Origin: a virus
DNA: 33,778 nt
Virus record (IMG/VR): IMGVR_UViG_3300011113_000503
Coordinates: 1 to 33,778 of that record
Strand: one strand, 5' to 3'
Below the pieces are notes generated by a model. The model did not search any database. It had not been told where the DNA came from and worked only from the letters and a program-made list of their open reading frames with translations. Within the stretch, counting starts at the first letter, position 1, and each line of letters begins with the position of its first letter. Below are positions 1 through 33,778 of this stretch, piece by piece. The translations under genes and the position numbers were made by a program.

Positions 1-127
1 GCGGTGTAGTCTGTGCCACAGCCAAGGTGGGAGGCGTAGGACCTTTGTACTGAACAATCGTTACATCATTGCCGAGCTTATCAATCGAAGCAGAGCCAGC
101 GGGAACCATCCACTTAGGATGGCTAAC
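1..127. repeat. terminal direct repeat, left copy (circle junction)
   Basis: These 127 bases are identical to positions 33652-33778. The portal reading frame continues without interruption when the two copies are merged. The length equals a common assembly word size, so I read this as the overlap of a circular contig, not a true phage terminal repeat. The unique genome length is then 33651 bp. Confidence 0.93.
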
Positions 128-1466: not shown

Positions 1467-1624
1467 AGTTTTACTTTCTTAAGCGCCTCCGCTGCTAAAC
1501 AGGGGTCGCATTTTAGTTTTGTTTGCCGCATCCATGGCTCACAGGTGCATCCGGGCTCAGCAATTTTAAACAGAACTTTTTTCATGAACATGTGCTCTGT
1601 CTTCAATTGCTCTGCGAGTGTCAT
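1463..1624 (-). CDS. tiny cysteine-containing protein (53 aa)
   Basis: A 53-codon frame starting at the ATG that overlaps the terminase stop (ATGA at 1624-1621) and ending in a second ATGA overlap with the next gene (1466-1463). The protein begins MTLAEQLKTEHMFMKK. It carries a C-x-C pair (GCTCEP) and a C-x2-C pair (KCDPC), a plausible zinc-binding set. Coupling at both ends and exact filling of the gap between two real genes support it as a true gene. Function unknown. Confidence 0.7.
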   Translation of the reverse strand: MTLAEQLKTEHMFMKKVLFKIAEPGCTCEPWMRQTKLKCDPCLAAEALKKVKL

Positions 1625-3027
1625 GTCTCCAATTCATCCACAGACTCACCCCAATCGTCAAACGCTGGGAAGTCGTGTGAAGGTCTAGCGCCACGCCACA
1701 TATTGGAAATCTCTGCAGGGATAGGCTCTGGTGAGTCTTTCGTCGTGTAGTTTGCAGCATCCAGTGCATAGCGAAGGCAGTCGATTAAGTGGTCATTGGC
1801 TTTAATGATCTTACCGTTCTGGTCTTTGCGGTAGTTCTCCATCTCCCAATAGAGATTTACACAACGATCAGAGAACGTGACTAAGCCATCAACTAGGGCG
1901 TCTTTGATCAGGGCAAGGCCAGAGATCTTATCTGACTTAGCTTTCTGGCTTGGCTCAAAGTGTTCGCTAAACACGTCAAGCATCTCATTAGCAAACCATG
2001 TCTCAGCCTCGTCATAACCTTGACGCCACTCTACTTCAGGCATCTCCATTAGATCTGCGCGCATTCCTAGGAGCCGTCGTCCGATCTGACCCACAGTCAT
2101 GTCAGCTTGAGACTTCTCATAGATTTCATCTAGCAAGTAGATGCGCCTGGAATAGGGGTTGATAGCCAGGAACAGAACCGCAAAGCAGGAAGCCCCAGCA
2201 GGGTCAGCCCACAAGATCCACTCTAGCTTTCTCCTGTCTCGATACAGCTCACGCATGAGTTGCTCATGTGACCTAATGATCTGCTTAGAAAGCATCGGGA
2301 AGATGGCCGAGCGTCCGCCCTTAACGAAGCGGGCCATGTATTCTCGTTCCCACTGATCTCCATCACCGCGAGCATAAAGCTCTGCTTTCTTAGCCTCTAA
2401 CCAAGCGCGACTAATATGAGGATTTGAGTCGCTCGGGAACGTGAAGAAGCGCTTTCTAGGATCGCGTTGATAGGCTTCTGCTACCTGGGTAAACTGACAG
2501 TCATGATCGGGTGGAGTACCTACGATGAGAAGAGGAGTATCGTGTGCAGCGCGGTTAGGATCGTAGGCTTCATAGAACTCAGGCCTGAAGTCTTTGAACT
2601 CATCAAACACCGATAAGCCTTTAGGCTTAACACCCCGGTAAGCCTCTACGTTGTCAGAACCGTCGAGCTTGATGAAACTGCCGTTAGTGAACGTGACACG
2701 CATCTCTGTGTTGTTCACGTCTTTGATCCAGTCCTTGGGTCCAAAGTCTTGGATCCTCCTGCTGGCCCACAGAATTTCACGGGCCTGCTTCATATAAGGA
2801 GCGAAATAGTAGTTCTCACTGCCAGAGTAGGTCCAAGCCCAACGCCAAAGCAGGTAGCCAACTAACTCGCTCTTCCCTAAGTTTCGACCGCACTGAGCAA
2901 AGACTTCTTTAATGTCGTCCTTGATCATAGCTCGCCCGATTTCAATCTGCGCCGGGTGAGGTCTCCACTTTGTGTGTAGCTGATCAAGCCCGCGTACTAT
3001 GCGTTCGATCTCCGGATGCGGTTTCAT
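1621..3027 (-). CDS. terL: terminase large subunit (packaging ATPase-nuclease)
   Basis: The motor that drives DNA into the procapsid and cuts it; 468 residues, normal for the family. The ATPase half shows a Walker A variant at about residues 45-53 (CGRNLGKSE, K52), Walker B at 138-143 (LSVFDE, D142/E143) and a coupling motif at 167-173 (LIVGTPP). The nuclease half has an acidic residue at D275 (ILWADPAG) and the typical C-terminal signature NDHLIDCLRYALD at 411-423 (D412, D416). The start overlaps the small-subunit stop by ATGA (3027-3024), which fixes it. The stop overlaps a tiny downstream gene in the same way. Confidence 0.97.
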   Translation of the reverse strand: MKPHPEIERIVRGLDQLHTKWRPHPAQIEIGRAMIKDDIKEVFAQCGRNLGKSELVGYLLWRWAWTYSGSENYYFAPYMKQAREILWASRRIQDFGPKDWIKDVNNTEMRVTFTNGSFIKLDGSDNVEAYRGVKPKGLSVFDEFKDFRPEFYEAYDPNRAAHDTPLLIVGTPPDHDCQFTQVAEAYQRDPRKRFFTFPSDSNPHISRAWLEAKKAELYARGDGDQWEREYMARFVKGGRSAIFPMLSKQIIRSHEQLMRELYRDRRKLEWILWADPAGASCFAVLFLAINPYSRRIYLLDEIYEKSQADMTVGQIGRRLLGMRADLMEMPEVEWRQGYDEAETWFANEMLDVFSEHFEPSQKAKSDKISGLALIKDALVDGLVTFSDRCVNLYWEMENYRKDQNGKIIKANDHLIDCLRYALDAANYTTKDSPEPIPAEISNMWRGARPSHDFPAFDDWGESVDELET

Positions 3028-5884: not shown

Positions 5885-5945
5885 AACGTGTATCTAAAAT
5901 CTGTGTAACCCAGTAGTTCTTCAGTTCTTCAAGATGGACCACTGT

Positions 5946-8573: not shown

Positions 8574-8757
8574 TCACGAAGAGCTTCGTCGCATCGTGCT
8601 CGACATGATCTCAGAGCATAAGGCGCAAGCCAAGAAGCACGGCGTTGATCGGAAGGACGTCATCGGCAAAGACGCGTTCTTCATCGAGCAAGAAGCTGAT
8701 AAGGACTTCATCTCTCAGTGGGGAGATGAGCACGGCAATCTGCCTGAGTGGAGTTAA
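8557..8757 (+). CDS. unknown small acidic protein (66 aa)
   Basis: Starts at ATG 8557 or 8560 behind GAGG, inside the end of the annealing gene. The product runs MMTRFDHEELRRIVLDMISE... and is charged and helical, ending DEHGNLPEWS. The overlap implies translational coupling with the recombinase. Function unknown. Confidence 0.65.
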   Translation: MMTRFDHEELRRIVLDMISEHKAQAKKHGVDRKDVIGKDAFFIEQEADKDFISQWGDEHGNLPEWS

Positions 8758-8760
8758 GTG

Positions 8761-9006
8761 ATGCTAACAATCAAACGCGCAGAAAACGGATGGGCGGTAA
8801 CTCAAGTGGCCACAGGCGAAGCACCTGAATCACTTCTAGTCTTTTCAGATGATCGTTGCACCGATGTTGAAGCGTTTACTGATCTCCTTAGATATTTGTT
8901 GGATGAACTAGGCCCTTCAACGAGCCGGTATTCAGAGCAACGCATCTATATTGAGATTAGGCCTGGCGATAAAAGAGATCCGGTGCTTTTGAGAGACAGT
9001 ACATGA
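8761..9006 (+). CDS. unknown small protein (81 aa)
   Basis: ATG 8761 is preceded by GGAG; an in-frame GTG directly before it at 8758 is an alternative. The product MLTIKRAENGWAVTQVATGE looks alpha/beta and acidic (FSDDRCTDVEAFTDLLRYLL). It ends in an ATGA overlap with the next gene. No family recognised. Confidence 0.65.
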   Translation: MLTIKRAENGWAVTQVATGEAPESLLVFSDDRCTDVEAFTDLLRYLLDELGPSTSRYSEQRIYIEIRPGDKRDPVLLRDST

Positions 9007-9179
9007 GCGAACATTCTAACTACTGCGATCACCCTGTGAACTCATGCCTCTATGAGAAAGAGATCAAGCGCCTAGAGGCTGAGAACGCATGTCTTCTCGA
9101 AACGATTCGACAGCTTCGAGAGCATGTTGAAGACGGCAATAAAACTGAAAACGCTTGCAATGACTCTAATTCCCCTTAA
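9003..9179 (+). CDS. tiny coiled-coil protein (58 aa)
   Basis: A 58-residue frame whose ATG overlaps the previous stop (ATGA, 9003-9006). Residues 17-44 have a leucine-zipper-like heptad pattern (YEKEIKRLEAENACLLETIR), with cysteines at 8, 15, 30 and 52. Small coiled-coil proteins of this kind often dimerise and act as regulators; the role here is unknown. Confidence 0.65.
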   Translation: MSEHSNYCDHPVNSCLYEKEIKRLEAENACLLETIRQLREHVEDGNKTENACNDSNSP

Positions 9180-9205
9180 TGATTTTATTTCCTAGGGGGG
9201 AATTT

Positions 9206-9403
9206 ATGCCGCTGAAAAAAGGTTACTCGCAAGCTACCGTGTCTGGAAACGTCCGCGAAATGATGGACTCTGGCCGTCCTCAAAAGCAGGCCGTCGCTAT
9301 CGCTCTTGAAACCGCTCGTAAGGCTAAGAAAGCTGCTGGTCTTAAGATCAAGCAACAGCCTAAAAAAATCGTCAAAAAGCCCGCGATCAAGAAGAAAAAG
9401 TAA
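9206..9403 (+). CDS. small conserved phage protein, DUF6496-like (65 aa)
   Basis: Start set at ATG 9206 because AGGGGGG lies about 6 bases upstream; an earlier frame opening at 9179 has none. The sequence MPLKKGYSQATVSGNVREMM followed by SGRPQKQAVAIALETARKAK matches a small family common in podophages, which I know as DUF6496. The C-terminus is a lysine-rich tail. The family function is not known; the basic tail suggests nucleic-acid contact. Confidence 0.78.
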   Translation: MPLKKGYSQATVSGNVREMMDSGRPQKQAVAIALETARKAKKAAGLKIKQQPKKIVKKPAIKKKK

Positions 9404-9594
9404 TGCGGTCTATTACCGACTACTGCAAGAAATGCGGTAGAGAGATGACCATTAACAGGCATCAGCTATGCCTAGAGTGTCGCTCGGTGCCCTGTCACAA
9501 GTGCAAGGCATTAACCACGACCAAACCGAAACGTAATGGATCAATCGTCTGCTCGAAATGCTCTAACGCTAACAGGTCTTCCCGACGTGCTTGA
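9403..9594 (+). CDS. double zinc-ribbon protein (63 aa)
   Basis: Eight cysteines in four C-x2-C knuckles: C8/C11, C23/C26, C31/C34 and C50/C53, enough for two zinc sites. The tail is basic (NANRSSRRA). The ATG overlaps the preceding stop (TAATG). Its 3' end overlaps the convergent nuclease gene by 26 bases, so the two gene blocks meet tail to tail here without a spacer. Confidence 0.72.
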   Translation: MRSITDYCKKCGREMTINRHQLCLECRSVPCHKCKALTTTKPKRNGSIVCSKCSNANRSSRRA

Positions 9595-10003
9595 GTTTCT
9601 TGAGGTCAACCGCGTCAAAAAGCTCGCATTCTGTTTTTGCCCTGATTGCGTCGTCGATCTGCTTTAGAACGAATTGAACATCCTCAAGCGATCGCGCGAC
9701 AAACGCTAAAGCCCCAAGGTTAACCATCTGAGTAAGCCACGCTTCTTGGTGCTCAGTCACTACACCCTTGGGGCGCTTTACTTCGATCGCTAAGAAATAC
9801 CCGTTATAGATACCTAGAATATCGGCGCTACCGATGTTTGAGAACTTACCTGGCTTTAAGAACGCCTTACGGGTTGGACTGTACAGGCCGACTGAGTTAT
9901 TTCGCCAAGCCTTGGTTCTTGGCTGAAGTGCAAGCCACTCAAGGATGCTCATCATGATTTGCTGTTCAGTCGGCTGAATGGCCTTTGGTTTCTTCGTTCT
10001 CAT
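9569..10003 (-). CDS. VRR-NUC domain nuclease
   Basis: 144 residues from ATG 10003; the frame extends upstream only through a TTG inside a terminator hairpin, which I reject. The PD-(D/E)xK core of the VRR-NUC family is visible: GSADILGI with D61, then FLAIEVKRPKG with E74 and K76, and Q86 in TEHQEAWL. The N-terminus PTEQQIMMSILEWLALQ is also typical. Phage members are small stand-alone nucleases, often near recombination or replication genes, and are thought to resolve branched DNA. It lies on the late strand but behind the late terminator. There is no clear Shine-Dalgarno. Confidence 0.85.
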   Translation of the reverse strand: MRTKKPKAIQPTEQQIMMSILEWLALQPRTKAWRNNSVGLYSPTRKAFLKPGKFSNIGSADILGIYNGYFLAIEVKRPKGVVTEHQEAWLTQMVNLGALAFVARSLEDVQFVLKQIDDAIRAKTECELFDAVDLKKLKHVGKTC

Positions 10004-10018
10004 ATAATGATAGAACAA

Positions 10019-10054
10019 TAAAAAACCCCGGCTGTCACTGGCAGACAACCGGGG
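10019..10054 (-). terminator. strong late-operon terminator
   Basis: Hairpin CCCCGG-C-TGTC / GACA-A-CCGGGG (10026-10054, one mismatch) with AAAAAA on its left, giving TTTTTTAT on the minus strand. It ends the late block after the haloperoxidase gene. Confidence 0.9.
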
Positions 10055-10095
10055 CCCTCATCACTCAAACGAATCCAAAACTCAACAGTGACTAA

Positions 10096-11634
10096 TTACA
10101 CTGTGACAGAAGATCCGTCAAACTTGACGATCGTAACATCACCGATCGCTTCGTTTTGTTGTTTCTTGAGGTCTTTGAACCACTGAAGAGCGACCTTTTC
10201 GCCAAGCTTCATGCCTTCGTCACCATCCGAGCGGAAGTGAACGCCAAGCATGTTCCGACCAAGCGAAATGTTCGAGGCTAGTTTGTTCAACTCGCCGTGA
10301 ATCGTCATCTGAGAAGCATCAGCATCGGTGTAGCTGTTCAAGGCAGAACCATCGGTAGATTGAACAGCACTGAGGCCAGTCGAAGACCAAGCAGCATCAG
10401 CAATGTACAGCTTGATGATGGTCACACATGCGCCAGCGATGGCTGCGTGTCCAGCAGGGTAGCTAGGATGCAGCGGGCTACCTTCAGCAGCGAGCATAGC
10501 CAGGAACGGCTTGCTAGCGCCACTCGACCGAGCCAAGTTAGCTGCGTTCGTTGCAGTGACAGTCGCAGAACTCTTGAGGTCAGCGTGGACCGTTCCGACT
10601 GGAAGCAGACCGTCGATCTCCATCGCACAACGTGCTGCGACGACTTCAGGACGCGGAGCCAAGTGGTGACGCCACTTCTGAACCCACGTCGCTTTCAGTG
10701 CGTGACGTGCAACTTCTGTCACAGCACAACCCAGGTCAACTGGACCGCCGTTGGTAACGAATCGGTCTTCGTTTGCAAGCACCGGGAATCCGCTTTGACG
10801 GCTCATGCCGTTAAGCATGATCGCAGCATACAAGAATTGTTGAAAAACATAGTCAACGTGAGCCACTGAAGCCAGCAAGCGAGGGCTGTCAACGTATTTA
10901 GTGACGCCGATGCCCTGAGATGTAGGGATGGTTCCGTTTTGGATGGCGAGGTAGTTTGTCTTATTATAGCCGTATGCACCAGTACGCTCTTTGTATTTTT
11001 GCGTAATCGTGTGCGCACCGAAATCAAATGGGTGCAACAAAAGCTGAGAAACGTAGGGGCCTACCAACTCACCCGGAGCATTACCGCGAAACAAAGATTT
11101 ACGGGTTACGACTCCACCGATCTTTGGACCCTTGAAGTCAGAACCGAAAGCGTTGAGCGAGTCAATCGCGCGCTGGATAGACGAATCAACAGAGTTTCCG
11201 CTCAGCACGGCGAAGGTCTTATCCGTCAAAAGCGACATCTCATAGACTTCGACCATCTCAGCAGCTTTTTCACGCGAGTTAAGCGCGAATGGAGCTGGCA
11301 TGGTGAATCCCTCAGGGTCACCGCCCATGTTCTCGTAAGCTAGTCCGCCTTGCGGAGAAACCTGCTTACGGGTGCCGGCTTTGTCTAATTTATTAAAGTC
11401 AGCTTGTAGACCAGTCTCCATTGCAATTTGAAGCTCTTTAATCGAGGCTTCAGTTGCTAGAAGCGTGCTGCTATCGTGGGTCATGCCCTTTGAATACAGG
11501 CCTGCGTACTTATCGTTCAACTTATCAGGGTTGATCACCTGGCCGGTTTCAACGTCTTTAAACTGTGCCAGTGCTTGTTCCTGGCGATGCGCGAGCATGT
11601 TCGCTGCGACTTTTGCGCTTTCTTTCTTAGCCAT
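10096..11634 (-). CDS. vanadium-dependent haloperoxidase-like enzyme
   Basis: 512 residues. The vanadate-binding motifs of the haloperoxidase family occur in order and with the correct spacing. Motif 1 is KWRHHLAPRPE at 320-330, with K320 and R328 eight residues apart as in algal bromoperoxidases. Motif 2 is HPSYPAGHA at 389-397, with G395 and H396. Motif 3 is GRNMLGVHFRSD at 459-470, with R460, H466 and D470. LFRGNAPGELVGPYVSQLLL at 181-200 is another familiar stretch of bacterial members. One known vanadate contact, the Ser of P-S-x-P-S-G-H, is Ala394 here. Known enzymes use hydrogen peroxide to oxidise bromide, iodide or chloride to hypohalous acid; related proteins are phosphatases. No signal peptide. 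It is the last late gene, behind the lysis genes, with its ribosome site in a hairpin. Confidence 0.88.
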   Translation of the reverse strand: MAKKESAKVAANMLAHRQEQALAQFKDVETGQVINPDKLNDKYAGLYSKGMTHDSSTLLATEASIKELQIAMETGLQADFNKLDKAGTRKQVSPQGGLAYENMGGDPEGFTMPAPFALNSREKAAEMVEVYEMSLLTDKTFAVLSGNSVDSSIQRAIDSLNAFGSDFKGPKIGGVVTRKSLFRGNAPGELVGPYVSQLLLHPFDFGAHTITQKYKERTGAYGYNKTNYLAIQNGTIPTSQGIGVTKYVDSPRLLASVAHVDYVFQQFLYAAIMLNGMSRQSGFPVLANEDRFVTNGGPVDLGCAVTEVARHALKATWVQKWRHHLAPRPEVVAARCAMEIDGLLPVGTVHADLKSSATVTATNAANLARSSGASKPFLAMLAAEGSPLHPSYPAGHAAIAGACVTIIKLYIADAAWSSTGLSAVQSTDGSALNSYTDADASQMTIHGELNKLASNISLGRNMLGVHFRSDGDEGMKLGEKVALQWFKDLKKQQNEAIGDVTIVKFDGSSVTV

Positions 11635-11639
11635 TTTCT

Positions 11640-11662
11640 ATCTCCTAATTAGGTTAGGAGAT
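11640..11662 (-). promoter_or_regulatory. hairpin over the haloperoxidase ribosome site
   Basis: On the minus strand ATCTCCTAA-CCTAA-TTAGGAGAT forms perfect 9-bp arms. The right arm holds the Shine-Dalgarno AGGAG, 7 bases before the ATG at 11634. Folding would hide the site, so translation could be controlled, or coupled to ribosomes finishing the upstream gene, whose stop lies in the left arm. Confidence 0.65.
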
Positions 11663-11859
11663 TATTTTCGTACGCGCTCGAATAGAAGGTCAATCTTGTT
11701 TTCAATTCTTTCAAGACGACGCTCGACTAACTCGCTGCGTTCTTTCACAGTCTGCTTGGGCTCAAAAGTCTCGTAACTCCAGCCAACGATAGCAGCGCCA
11801 GCAGATAGCACACCGGCTAGTGTAATAATAGGTGAAGCTAAATCACTAAAGTCCTTCAT
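11662..11859 (-). CDS. one-span membrane protein with coiled coil (65 aa)
   Basis: Residues 8-28 (ASPIITLAGVLSAGAAIVGW) form a membrane segment. Residues 38-64 form a charged coiled coil (ERSELVERRLERIENKIDLL). It overlaps the lipoprotein gene by 14 bases. This layout (short N-terminus, membrane anchor, coiled coil) suits a small holin or an inner-membrane spanin subunit next to an outer-membrane lipoprotein, but it is short for a spanin. Confidence 0.65.
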   Translation of the reverse strand: MKDFSDLASPIITLAGVLSAGAAIVGWSYETFEPKQTVKERSELVERRLERIENKIDLLFERVRK

Positions 11860-12088
11860 CTTTGATGCACCTTAGCCTCATGTAATCCATGACCCGCTTA
11901 AAATCATCGGGACTTAGAGCGATATAGTTTTCAGCTTCCTCTAGTGTCAAAACACTGACACGGCCAGCAGGATCAGAACAAACAAGCACAGAGTCTTTTG
12001 ACTCAATGACGCACACGGTAACCTTTGGGCCGTCTTTACATCCTGCGAATAAGAGCGGCAAGATTAGCAGCAGCTTGAGCTTTTTCAT
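11846..12088 (-). CDS. small lipoprotein (80 aa), possible outer spanin
   Basis: MKKLKLLLILPLLFAGCKD is a clear lipoprotein signal with lipobox LFAGC; C17 would be lipidated. The mature part is about 64 residues, acidic, with two more cysteines near the front (VTVCVIESKDSVLVCSD). The gene starts inside the end of the preceding 73-residue gene in another frame (53-base overlap), an arrangement seen in Rz/Rz1 spanin pairs. Unlike Rz1 it is not proline-rich, so the spanin role is tentative. Confidence 0.7.
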   Translation of the reverse strand: MKKLKLLLILPLLFAGCKDGPKVTVCVIESKDSVLVCSDPAGRVSVLTLEEAENYIALSPDDFKRVMDYMRLRCIKDEGL

Positions 12089-12257
12089 CCCGTGTCTTTG
12101 CCTCTTTAATCATCTTAATCGCTTCAGCGTGTTCTTCAATCGCCTTAGCCGGATTATCCCCAAAATTAGCTTTAAGCCAATTAGCCATTTCTTCAACAAG
12201 CCGCATTAAAGCTGGCAGCGAAGTTAGGATGATTTTAAGAGCCGACAGGAAGCTCAT
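12036..12257 (-). CDS. small helical protein of the lysis cassette (73 aa)
   Basis: MSFLSALKIILTSLPALMRLVEEMANWL begins with an amphipathic hydrophobic helix; the rest is a charged helix (HAEAIKMIKEAKTRDEKAQA) ending AALIRRM. The ATG overlaps the upstream stop (ATGA). The last 17 codons overlap the lipoprotein signal peptide in another frame. It could be a membrane-associated lysis accessory or spanin partner; not certain. Confidence 0.6.
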   Translation of the reverse strand: MSFLSALKIILTSLPALMRLVEEMANWLKANFGDNPAKAIEEHAEAIKMIKEAKTRDEKAQAAANLAALIRRM

Positions 12258-12451
12258 TCTTCCAGCTTTTCAGGCTTCTTCGAGAACTTCGCCAAGAAAT
12301 CGACTATCTTATACAAGGTCTTTTCCGGCTGCTCGCCAGGGATCAGCATGAACAGCGCAGCCAAAGCACTAAGCACCGCGACGATTGCGCCTAAGTAAGC
12401 AGGGCCTTGTTCAATAATCACTTTAATAACAACTAAAACCTTTTCCATCAC
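12254..12451 (-). CDS. probable holin (65 aa)
   Basis: One strong membrane segment at about residues 17-38 (AYLGAIVAVLSALAALFMLI), then PGEQPEKTLYKIVDFLAKFSKK. The IPG-QP-KTL...DFLAKFS ending recurs next to endolysin genes in many phages. A holin makes the inner-membrane hole that releases or activates the lytic enzyme. It overlaps the transglycosylase stop by ATGA. Confidence 0.65.
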   Translation of the reverse strand: MMEKVLVVIKVIIEQGPAYLGAIVAVLSALAALFMLIPGEQPEKTLYKIVDFLAKFSKKPEKLEE

Positions 12452-12951
12452 TTGCCTCCGTGCATGTCTTGGATGATTTGAATCGCGTTATTTACCTTAT
12501 CAACGTAAGCCTGATTCTTATATTTTCCATCGAGCGACTTCACAGGCGTTCCGGCATTATAAGCCGCAATAATATCATCACGCTCTTTAAACCGCGTGGC
12601 TAGCCGTTTGATGAGTTTACTTGCGTAGGTCAGATTGATCTTTGGCTCAAGTAGCTGAAGGATAGAACCCTTTAGACCATACTCTCTCGCGACGGCTCCC
12701 ATAAGCTGGCAAAGGCCCCAGCTAGTCATCTGAAGCATCATCTCAGTCGTTTCAGTGATGCGATTATCGAGAGCGTTCTTTTTAGTCTCGAAAAGATACT
12801 TATAGTCTTTTTCGAACCTGCAAGCGAACGGATTGCCTCCGCTTTCAACGAAGACAATCGCAGCGAGTAGATTCTTTGGGACGTTTTCAAGTGATGCCAC
12901 ATCGTCAATCACATCCCAAGGAAGCTCAAAAACCCAGTGCCGTCCTAGCAT
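12448..12951 (-). CDS. lytic transglycosylase (endolysin or virion lysin)
   Basis: 167 residues with the SLT/lysozyme-like pattern: catalytic E36 in FVESGGNPFA, then WGLCQLMGAVAREYG at 78-92, and DDIIAAYNAGTP at 125-136. It would cleave the glycan strands of peptidoglycan. There is no signal peptide; it would need the neighbouring holin or delivery with the virion. It starts at an overlapping TAATG with the ejection-protein gene and is followed by holin-like and lipoprotein genes, favouring a role as the endolysin. Position next to ejection proteins leaves a virion role open. Confidence 0.85.
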   Translation of the reverse strand: MLGRHWVFELPWDVIDDVASLENVPKNLLAAIVFVESGGNPFACRFEKDYKYLFETKKNALDNRITETTEMMLQMTSWGLCQLMGAVAREYGLKGSILQLLEPKINLTYASKLIKRLATRFKERDDIIAAYNAGTPVKSLDGKYKNQAYVDKVNNAIQIIQDMHGGK

Positions 12952-29840: not shown

Positions 29841-29923
29841 TGGATGCGGGGAGGGGATTCGAACCCCCGACGCAGTGGGAAGCGTCCTTGCGCCACTTTG
29901 CTCTGCCACTGAGCTACCCCGCA
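29841..29923 (-). tRNA. tRNA-like gene with aberrant anticodon arm
   Basis: On the minus strand an 83-nt element has a perfect 7-bp acceptor stem TGCGGGG/CCCCGCA, encoded TCCA end, a normal D arm (GCTC-AGTGGCA-GAGC) and a normal T arm (GGGGG-TTCGAAT-CCCCT). The anticodon region is not canonical. AGTGG/CCACT forms a 5-bp stem but closes a 14-nt loop, and the alternative GACGC/GCGTC gives an 8-nt loop (TTCCCACT) with no variable region. The U before CCA and the TTCCCA stretch recall glycine tRNA(CCC). It lies in the late operon between virion genes. It could be a functional odd tRNA, a tRNA needing processing, or a decayed or decoy one. Confidence 0.75.
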
Positions 29924-30322: not shown

Positions 30323-31516
30323 TTAGACAGCCAAGCCCGAGATCACGCCGTGGAAAGACGGCACGATGTAGGCTTCCAAGTAGCCGCCGTAGCGCGCTTC
30401 GTAGGCATCCTGCGAAGCAGTACGGAGGAATACAGATCCGTCGTCGTCGAACCAGCCAAAGTCAGGGCGGTGCTTGATTTCTAAATAGTTGTCATTTAAG
30501 AAATACATGCGATCGTTTTCGATGAAGCGCTCGGGGAACACGCCGACTGCACCAGCAGAAGACATGAACTCAACGCCACGGAACGACACCTTGCCCTGAA
30601 GCTCAGGAGAGCGGGGCTCGATGATGTATTGCTTTTGGTCTTCGAGAAGGTTCAAGAGCTTACGGTATTGATCGAAAGAGCACATGATCAAGTTCGGCAC
30701 CTTGCCGGACTTGCGTTGCACTTCCAACATGACTTGGTTCATAAGGTCAGGAGTCAAGCCTGCGCCACCTGCTGCCACTTGGGTAGCCTGCCAACGACGG
30801 CCAACCGGAACAGCATATTGGTTGCCGGAAGTTGCATCCAAAACGCCCTTCAGACCGCTTGGGTCGTTGTTGCGGGAGTTTTGCATGTACACCGTGTGCG
30901 AGCCTGCACCGATCGAAGTCAGGTCATCAGAACCGCTGATGCGGCTCAAGCTGATCTCACGAGTGACAGGATTGACGCTCACAACTTCCCAGACAGAGCT
31001 GAGAGTGTTGACGTTTACATAGTCTTTTTCTTCAAAGTTAGCTTCTTTGAACGATGCAGCCGTGATCGTGATCACAGGAGCCGAAGCGGTTCCAGAAGCG
31101 TTGCCCGAGAAAACGCCCAACGAACCAGAGCCGTCGTTGAACAAAGCGCGGGACATGTTGCGCATCCAGCTCTCAACGCCCTTTTGGACGCTGAACTTGG
31201 TCAACTCAACGAACGCACCTTCGTTGTTCGAAGCTGCCTTAATCGACTCGCGGTCAATTTGGATGACCGAGTACATTTTCTTAGCAGTGATTTGTGCATC
31301 TTCGATTGCTGCGTAGTTCGGGGTTGGGAGAGAGCCAGAGCCCACGCCGCCTGCGAAAGAGGTCGGGACAGCAATATCCATGCGCTTACCGGTGAAGTCA
31401 TAAGACTTCTTCACGCGAGCAAGCAGGACGTTTGCGCTGTTGTAGGTGTTATCCGAAAGTTTACCGTACTTGATCTTGAAAAGATTAGTAGCGGTGGTCA
31501 GGTTAAACTGTGCCAT
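30323..31516 (-). CDS. major capsid protein (397 aa)
   Basis: Located right after the scaffold with a good AAGGAAA ribosome site. Blocks typical of HK97-fold capsid proteins are present: VPNLIMCSFDQYRKLLNLLE, VEFMSSAGAVGVFPERFIEN and YLEIKHRPDFGWFDDDGSVF, plus a C-terminal stretch ARYGGYLEAYIVPSFHGVIS. It starts MAQFNLTTATNLFKIKYG with no sign of a cleaved propeptide, consistent with a separate scaffold gene. Confidence 0.92.
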   Translation of the reverse strand: MAQFNLTTATNLFKIKYGKLSDNTYNSANVLLARVKKSYDFTGKRMDIAVPTSFAGGVGSGSLPTPNYAAIEDAQITAKKMYSVIQIDRESIKAASNNEGAFVELTKFSVQKGVESWMRNMSRALFNDGSGSLGVFSGNASGTASAPVITITAASFKEANFEEKDYVNVNTLSSVWEVVSVNPVTREISLSRISGSDDLTSIGAGSHTVYMQNSRNNDPSGLKGVLDATSGNQYAVPVGRRWQATQVAAGGAGLTPDLMNQVMLEVQRKSGKVPNLIMCSFDQYRKLLNLLEDQKQYIIEPRSPELQGKVSFRGVEFMSSAGAVGVFPERFIENDRMYFLNDNYLEIKHRPDFGWFDDDGSVFLRTASQDAYEARYGGYLEAYIVPSFHGVISGLAV

Positions 31517-32674: not shown

Positions 32675-33778
32675 TTACGCTCCACGAGTTGGCTCAACTG
32701 GACCGGGTGCGGCCATGAGTTGAGTTTCGAGTGATGGCAGCTCGGCCTGCGCTGGCTCACCGGGAATTGGACTGAGGGCCGGATTGACTGGAAGGTTTGG
32801 CTCTTGTGCAAATGGTCCGCCAGTTGCTCCCATAGCCTGTGCTTCTTCTGGCATCACTTCAGGAGCAGGCGCTGGCTGAGGCAGACGATAGAACATTGGA
32901 AACAGCTCAAGCTGTGCAAGCATCTCAGAGAACTTTGCGTTGATCTTTGCCTGCTCGATCATGAACATTTCATGAACCAACACATGATCAATTAAGTTCT
33001 TTTGCTTGTCTGGCGGCGTCTTATATTTAAACGAAAACTCTTGAATCTGCTTGGTGTGCGTGCGCCAGTGAATGAGGTGGTTCTCAAACTCTTGGGGCTG
33101 CATCGCTTCTGCTTGCTTTTGATTAGCTTCAAGCAGCTTCTCAGTCTCGGCTTCTGCTGTTCTGACTGCAACAGTCGCCGAATCAACAAACTTGTCACTT
33201 TGAGCAAGGTCGAGCATGTCGATCACTTGCTCTGCTGTGAACTGAGTGGGAAAGCGCTCGGACAGATCAAGAAGCGTTTGGGTTCTTGCTGCGACCGACT
33301 TAGGCAATGCAGAGCTATTTTGAATTCTAATGTCAAAGTCGTGATTTAGATCAGCGGCTTTGAAAAACTCGGTCATGTACTCTTGGTTTTTGCCAAGCGT
33401 TCTAATCGTGCGCTCATCGGAATCATCAACGAAGTCTGCCATGACCTGAAGACTCATCTCAGCGGTTTGCCGAATGACTTCATTCCACTTAAGTACAAGC
33501 TCGTTGTAGCGCTCGCTCTCTTGCTCGGACAAGAACTGAAGCGCAACACCCGCTTTGATTCCAGGAGGCGGCTCACCACGGCTCACGCCAAAGACGCCGC
33601 TGATCTGCTGGAACTCTTCTTTTAGCTGCGTTCTGAAGCTGTAGACCTCTGGCGGTGTAGTCTGTGCCACAGCCAAGGTGGGAGGCGTAGGACCTTTGTA
33701 CTGAACAATCGTTACATCATTGCCGAGCTTATCAATCGAAGCAGAGCCAGCGGGAACCATCCACTTAGGATGGCTAAC
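32675..33778 (-). CDS. portal protein, C-terminal part (gene crosses the contig junction)
   Basis: Continuation of the portal frame that starts at 1246; bases 33652-33778 repeat 1-127. Residue 380 of the whole protein is the Met of MVPAGSASIDKLGNDVTIVQ at 33760. The crown region is helical (RTQLKEEFQQISGVFGVSRG; RYNELVLKWNEVIRQTAEMS), as in portals. The C-terminal barrel is long and helical, followed by a proline-rich tail ending GPVEPTRGA. Total length with the N-terminal part is 740 residues. Confidence 0.88.
   Translation of the reverse strand, partial: VSHPKWMVPAGSASIDKLGNDVTIVQYKGPTPPTLAVAQTTPPEVYSFRTQLKEEFQQISGVFGVSRGEPPPGIKAGVALQFLSEQESERYNELVLKWNEVIRQTAEMSLQVMADFVDDSDERTIRTLGKNQEYMTEFFKAADLNHDFDIRIQNSSALPKSVAARTQTLLDLSERFPTQFTAEQVIDMLDLAQSDKFVDSATVAVRTAEAETEKLLEANQKQAEAMQPQEFENHLIHWRTHTKQIQEFSFKYKTPPDKQKNLIDHVLVHEMFMIEQAKINAKFSEMLAQLELFPMFYRLPQPAPAPEVMPEEAQAMGATGGPFAQEPNLPVNPALSPIPGEPAQAELPSLETQLMAAPGPVEPTRGA
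33652..33778. repeat. terminal direct repeat, right copy (circle junction)
   Basis: Exact copy of positions 1-127. Merging the copies restores a single uninterrupted portal gene and gives a circle of 33651 bp. Confidence 0.93.

Follow-up and report, generated by a model that had tools for sequence, protein, structure and literature searches.

The window analysed here, an IMG/VR viral record of 33,778 bases, begins and ends with the same 127 bp, and joining the ends at this repeat leaves a genome of 33,651 bases, with the portal gene lying across the join. This exact direct repeat, together with the portal gene across the join, indicates that the window is a complete phage genome. The lysis cluster, the structural genes and those for terminase, portal, scaffold and major head protein lie on the minus strand (Table 1); one of the plus-strand genes is RecT-like. 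The only tRNA gene of the genome, a tRNA-Leu with anticodon CAA (29841-29923, minus strand), is located between structural genes of the late strand.

Table 1. Positions in the window of the terminal repeats and of the genes and signals discussed in the text.
Feature	Position	Strand	Remarks
Direct terminal repeat, copy 1	1..127		Spanned by the portal gene
Terminase large subunit	1621..3027	-	Query for finding related phages
Nuclease/Holliday-junction-resolvase-like gene	9569..10003	-	Beyond the inserted haloperoxidase gene and terminator
Strong intrinsic terminator	10021..10059	-	16-pair stem and T run; -27.9 kcal/mol, z -4.6
Predicted vanadium haloperoxidase gene, 512 aa	10096..11634	-	ATG start; ligands; fold
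Short inverted repeat	11640..11662	-	Overlaps the haloperoxidase ribosome-binding site; folds only weakly better than shuffled sequences
Small protein, one hydrophobic segment	11662..11859	-	Final lysis-cluster gene; borders the insertion on the left
Small lipoprotein-like gene, probable outer spanin	11846..12088	-	LFAGC lipobox; weak Rz-like spanin match
Small membrane protein, holin candidate	12254..12451	-	Sequence only
Transglycosylase SLT-domain endolysin	12448..12951	-	Pfam SLT, E 3.9e-14
Major head protein	30323..31516	-	
Direct terminal repeat, copy 2	33652..33778		Identical to copy 1

The lysis cluster comprises, in order, the SLT endolysin, a small membrane protein, a 73-aa protein, the lipoprotein-like spanin and a second small membrane protein. 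It is followed by the predicted haloperoxidase gene, the strong terminator directly 3' of this gene, and the nuclease gene. An earlier reading of the sequence without database searches (hereafter the sequence-only reading) had placed the haloperoxidase gene on the late strand, at the end of the late/lysis operon, and its position directly after the lysis genes and ahead of the terminator agrees with this. The gene is preceded by a well-placed AGGAG ribosome site. A weak sigma-70-like match (TTGACC-18-GAAAAT, 11693-11664) was also found, and such matches were no more numerous than in shuffled sequences. Hairpins directly ahead of the haloperoxidase ribosome site, differing in sequence, were also seen in the viral contigs L006 (about 5902-5925) and L007 (9898-9930); a hairpin at this place thus occurs in phages of two unrelated types.

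The scan for terminase relatives returned 79 loci, nine of which cover the junction between lysis cluster and nuclease gene (L120, L125, L126, L128, L133, L134, L137, L141 and L192; terminase 62-78% identical). In all nine, the last lysis gene adjoins, closely precedes or overlaps the nuclease gene, and the haloperoxidase gene is absent. It was found in none of 35 related records, several of which are fragments, so that only records spanning the junction establish its absence firmly. Because the junction is closed in the nine related contigs, the haloperoxidase gene represents an insertion of about 1.6 kb, and since gene and terminator together occupy this junction, the gene is accessory late cargo (a moron) of a podovirus-like phage. 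Like other phage morons, it lies where relatives have a closed junction, has its own ribosome site and terminator, and is read from the late-gene strand; it differs from them in that enzymatic cargo of the haloperoxidase kind is undescribed in the records and the open literature searched.

Protein family, active site and predicted fold

In a phmmer search of the PDB, the protein matched algal and cyanobacterial vanadium bromoperoxidases with an E-value of 4.7e-43 over residues 89-213 and 248-510. Its length of 512 aa is somewhat below that of the algal enzymes (556-598 aa) and may fairly be called normal. The residues considered here are W317, K320, R328, H389, A394-G395-H396, R460, H466 and D470. 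The sequence-only reading had listed the vanadate-site residues with the spacing of the family, and rightly so: K320, R328, G395-H396, R460 and H466 align with the vanadate ligands of the Corallina and Acaryochloris bromoperoxidases, and D470 follows them. The six ligands (K320, R328, G395, H396, R460 and H466) are kept in 12 of 12 close phage sequences, in all 17 viral rows when five more distant ones are included, and in nearly all of 77 bacterial rows drawn from the best 80 matches of the genome scan. These bacterial enzymes (from Verrucomicrobiota, Acidobacteriota, Bacillaceae, Streptomyces and others) and the Acaryochloris marina enzyme (5LPC) belong to the same family as the phage protein, with identities of up to 40%.

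Two neighbouring positions deserve comment. Ala394 had been regarded as unusual and as possibly altering halide preference or favouring a phosphatase-like role. However, Ala precedes Gly-His in 61 of the 77 bacterial enzymes (from the best 80 matches) and in Acaryochloris 5LPC; being the usual residue in the group, it carries no special meaning, and that suggestion must be abandoned. Three residues ahead of the catalytic Lys, W317 is Trp in all the viral and in 75 of the 77 bacterial sequences (again from the best 80 matches), as well as in the Ascophyllum and Curvularia enzymes, whereas Corallina has Arg. In the Corallina pilulifera enzyme, Phe or Trp in place of the corresponding Arg397 increased chlorination, while the matching change of Arg425 to Trp in the Acaryochloris enzyme had little effect (PMC11871015). 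Because the effect of Trp differs between the two enzymes, halide preference is not readable from the sequence.

The AlphaFold model, built from 87 aligned sequences (window, viral and bacterial), reached a pLDDT of 96.2 and a pTM of 0.95, whereas an alignment of eight phage sequences alone had produced a useless model (pLDDT 33.5). The model shows the all-helical haloperoxidase fold, with the ligands on matching elements. Its best Foldseek matches in the PDB were the Corallina, Ascophyllum and Acaryochloris bromoperoxidases (E 9e-30 to 2e-26). Structure prediction and overlay on algal enzymes, a check that the fold could have failed, thus recovered the expected fold, with TM-scores of 0.88-0.90 to the Corallina (1QHB/1UP8) and Ascophyllum (1QI9/5AA6) enzymes. 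These share with the phage protein the vanadate ligands, H389 and the GELNKLA-GRN-GVH segment, at about 25% identity in the structure alignment; the present gene also differs from theirs in being carried by a phage. The two E-values (4.7e-43 by phmmer and 9e-30 by Foldseek) exclude a chance match.

A PAP2-superfamily phosphatase, engaged in phosphate chemistry rather than halide oxidation, would have the same kind of active site, which haloperoxidases share with PAP2 acid phosphatases, and weak similarity to Pfam PAP2 was indeed seen (25.4 bits, below the curated cut-off of 27.2). Bromoperoxidases are nevertheless close to the phage protein (E 4.7e-43, TM about 0.9) and phosphatases distant: all had Foldseek E-values above 0.1, with a best value of about 0.16 compared with 9e-30 for the best bromoperoxidase. 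In addition, the protein has the haloperoxidase-type His389, an extra active-site residue shared with bromoperoxidases, and the GELNKLA segment. With sequence, fold, His389 and GELNKLA all on the haloperoxidase side, the phosphatase reading, which is very improbable, was rejected. The profile searches proposed earlier gave a sub-threshold PAP2 score alongside clear bromoperoxidase homology by phmmer. No match to the protein was found in NCBIfam, in PHROGs (at E < 0.1) or by PADLOC; given the sub-threshold Pfam score and the empty NCBIfam and PHROGs results, automatic annotation could miss the gene. By sequence, modelled fold and active site, the phage protein is a predicted vanadium haloperoxidase of the algal bromoperoxidase type, as the sequence-only reading had proposed; that it is active we infer from these likenesses.

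A strong hydrophobic leader was detected in none of 17 viral proteins, as against 18 of the 77 bacterial ones (from the best 80 matches), by a crude hydrophobicity measure. On this crude test, the phage enzyme appears to lack a signal peptide.

Viral homologues and their lineage

Five scans of IMG/VR yielded about 20 contigs with homologues of the haloperoxidase, including T4-like and podovirus-like ones and one of 619 kb. The closest homologue (56% identity) is carried by L004, whose phage is of the same kind as that of the window and distantly related to it (major head protein 57%, terminase 42% identical); here the gene has another place, with tail-fibre-like genes on one side and a structural gene on the other. 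In L006-L009 it follows the major head protein by one to three genes; the portal, protease and major head protein of these contigs belong to PHROGs 213, 207 and 138, a set which we take to be T4-like. It precedes a head-tail connector in L093, lies near another major head protein in L107, and in L108 follows a gene that the window also has and precedes a coiled-coil fibre-like gene. In all the close loci, the gene is on the same strand as its main neighbours. The search of viral databases suggested earlier thus found the gene again, with head or tail genes, not lysis genes, around it in several phages.

More distant homologues occur on contigs of 36-619 kb. Further proteins of viral contigs (L115-L119, L104 and L105) show the haloperoxidase/PAP2 signature at about 26-33% identity or weaker. 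In L002 and L001, the haloperoxidase neighbours (among them Hsp20, ATPase-like, nucleotidyltransferase-like, dehydrogenase and DNA ligase genes) are unlike the structural surroundings in other phages. A T4-type late promoter (TATAAATA) was not found ahead of the haloperoxidase gene in L006 and L007. In the large-phage loci L099, L100 and L102, a short conserved reading frame ahead of the gene was discarded as spurious, since its GIEPSP/GIRTRD segments, judged by eye, have the look of translated tRNA genes.

Among the predicted viral structures of BFVD, good matches to the model were found only among giant-virus proteins, and no phage entry matched. Virus-encoded proteins of this fold therefore exist in giant viruses of eukaryotes (Sylvanvirus, Hokovirus and Yasminevirus; TM normalised by query 0.77-0.94), at 23-29% identity to the phage enzyme. 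Three of them (A0A3G5AI90, A0A1V0SGK0 and A0A5K0U6L7), which are annotated as PAP2 or as uncharacterised, share the bromoperoxidase fold; they may be haloperoxidases that have gone unrecognised.

The nearest homologues of the window protein lie on other phage contigs, not in bacteria. When 84,980 genomes were scanned with phage-type patterns, neither a relative nor a close bacterial source emerged; bacterial haloperoxidases were found with patterns that included algal sequences, and most of those among the best 80 matches resemble the phage protein in the Ala that precedes Gly-His and in the Trp ahead of the catalytic Lys. In a tree of 77 bacterial, 2 solved and 17 viral sequences, all the viral rows fell on one side of a branch with an SH-aLRT of 99, and the same value separated 21 viral rows after four had been added and two long bacterial ones removed. 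Both trees are quick searches without bootstrap, with bacterial rows taken from the best 80 matches, and a bacterial sequence may be nested inside the viral lineage. Values of dN/dS between phage homologues were 0.09-0.16 (the nearest relative of the window protein being too distant for a reliable value), which points to constraint by purifying selection in several phages. The lineage has so far been seen only in viral contigs, which points to retention and exchange of a halogen-oxidising enzyme among phages.

These data also bear on whether the gene was joined to phage sequence by an assembly error, as its absence from the junction in nine related contigs might indicate. Against this, the contig closes by its 127-bp repeat, the nearest homologues lie on other phage contigs rather than in bacteria, the distant relative L004 also carries the gene, and no close bacterial source was found among the 84,980 genomes. 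With a genome that closes on itself and the gene present within phage modules of related phages, such an error is highly improbable, and the linkage to phage sequence claimed by the sequence-only reading holds.

Fifty thousand six hundred and ninety-seven phage records (50,697) gave no match to the haloperoxidase, and five plasmid records matched at about 30%. A search of the open literature, with subscription journals and preprints outside its scope, gave no report of a phage-borne vanadium haloperoxidase. A 'haloperoxidase' of mycobacteriophage TM4 is mentioned in a review (PMC9317374); as a member of the same family it was set aside, since the phage collection, as far as tested, contained no match to the query. 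The enzyme family is already known, and its phage-borne lineage is new with respect to the phage records, PHROGs and open literature searched.

Possible role in the phage

The account that best explains these data, and to which we give roughly even chances as a whole, is that the moron encodes a competent haloperoxidase which would be made late, released at lysis, and would there form hypohalite from peroxide and halide. The gene, which entered the podovirus-like phage between the final lysis gene and the nuclease gene and brought its own ribosome site and terminator, would encode a catalytically competent enzyme of the Corallina/Ascophyllum type and would be transcribed together with the lysis genes, late in infection. 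The enzyme, having no apparent signal peptide, would build up in the cytoplasm of the host. Phosphate there probably competes with vanadate at the active site and could hold the enzyme inactive until release. Once freed at lysis, it would take up vanadate from the surrounding water and use hydrogen peroxide to oxidise bromide or iodide, and possibly chloride, to hypohalous acid. Peroxide near the fresh virions would be consumed, and diffusible oxidants would be produced that could affect cells nearby or the signals of these cells. Production late in infection and release at lysis are favoured by the position after the lysis genes, the apparent lack of a signal peptide and the stable enzyme fold.

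Algae, fungi and bacteria are known to have vanadium haloperoxidases, which make hypohalous acids and volatile halocarbons; those of the algal type are very stable, and phosphate in the cytoplasm competes with their vanadate. In the algal and cyanobacterial enzymes, halide is oxidised with peroxide and the product diffuses freely, and non-selective haloperoxidases have roles in defence against fouling and grazing, in the breakdown of outside molecules and in oxidative stress (PMC8407465).

Release at lysis may be questioned on the ground that the enzyme of a single lysed cell may be too dilute outside, and the location among head and tail genes in several other phages would fit packaging equally well. 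The main rival to release is therefore packaging on or in the virion, for example with the tail fibres, where the enzyme could halogenate or oxidise the host surface or shield the particle from peroxide. The stability of algal-type enzymes and the recurrent presence of the gene among structural genes in L004, L006-L009, L093, L107 and L108 speak for packaging. However, the gene is absent from close relatives whose structural genes are otherwise collinear, which argues that it is not a needed part of the virion, and neither the model nor the fold search revealed an extra virion-binding domain beyond the haloperoxidase fold. On balance, packaging appears rather unlikely.

More doubtful still is a role during infection inside the cell, with the gene serving host metabolism or removing peroxide so that the cell stays alive until lysis. 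No viral copy has a detectable signal peptide, as would suit such a role, and in L007 and L008 the haloperoxidase gene is the second after one for a small protein (8595-9296 and 8596-9297, respectively) that looks ferritin-like by eye (DEAVHFRMVKE, EDEFIAKSYAKIAKDEGFH) but has no Pfam match; a link of this protein to peroxide chemistry is only a guess. The late, lysis-linked position would leave little time for an intracellular function, competition by cytoplasmic phosphate would also oppose it, and hypohalite formed inside the cell would be toxic.

A broader proposition would accommodate both release at lysis and carriage on the particle: that several unrelated phage types share and exchange a virus-only haloperoxidase lineage as late cargo, which would make extracellular hypohalous acid against peroxide or neighbours. 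We consider its chances to be somewhat below even. That halide oxidation would be useful to phages we infer from the separate viral lineage, from purifying selection, and from the position of the gene next to lysis genes in one phage and amid head or tail genes in others. Other viral proteins labelled PAP2 may likewise be haloperoxidases. The phage protein is small and testable, and might represent a new kind of phage-released oxidant and, with it, a way in which viruses contribute to the chemistry of halogens and peroxide in water.
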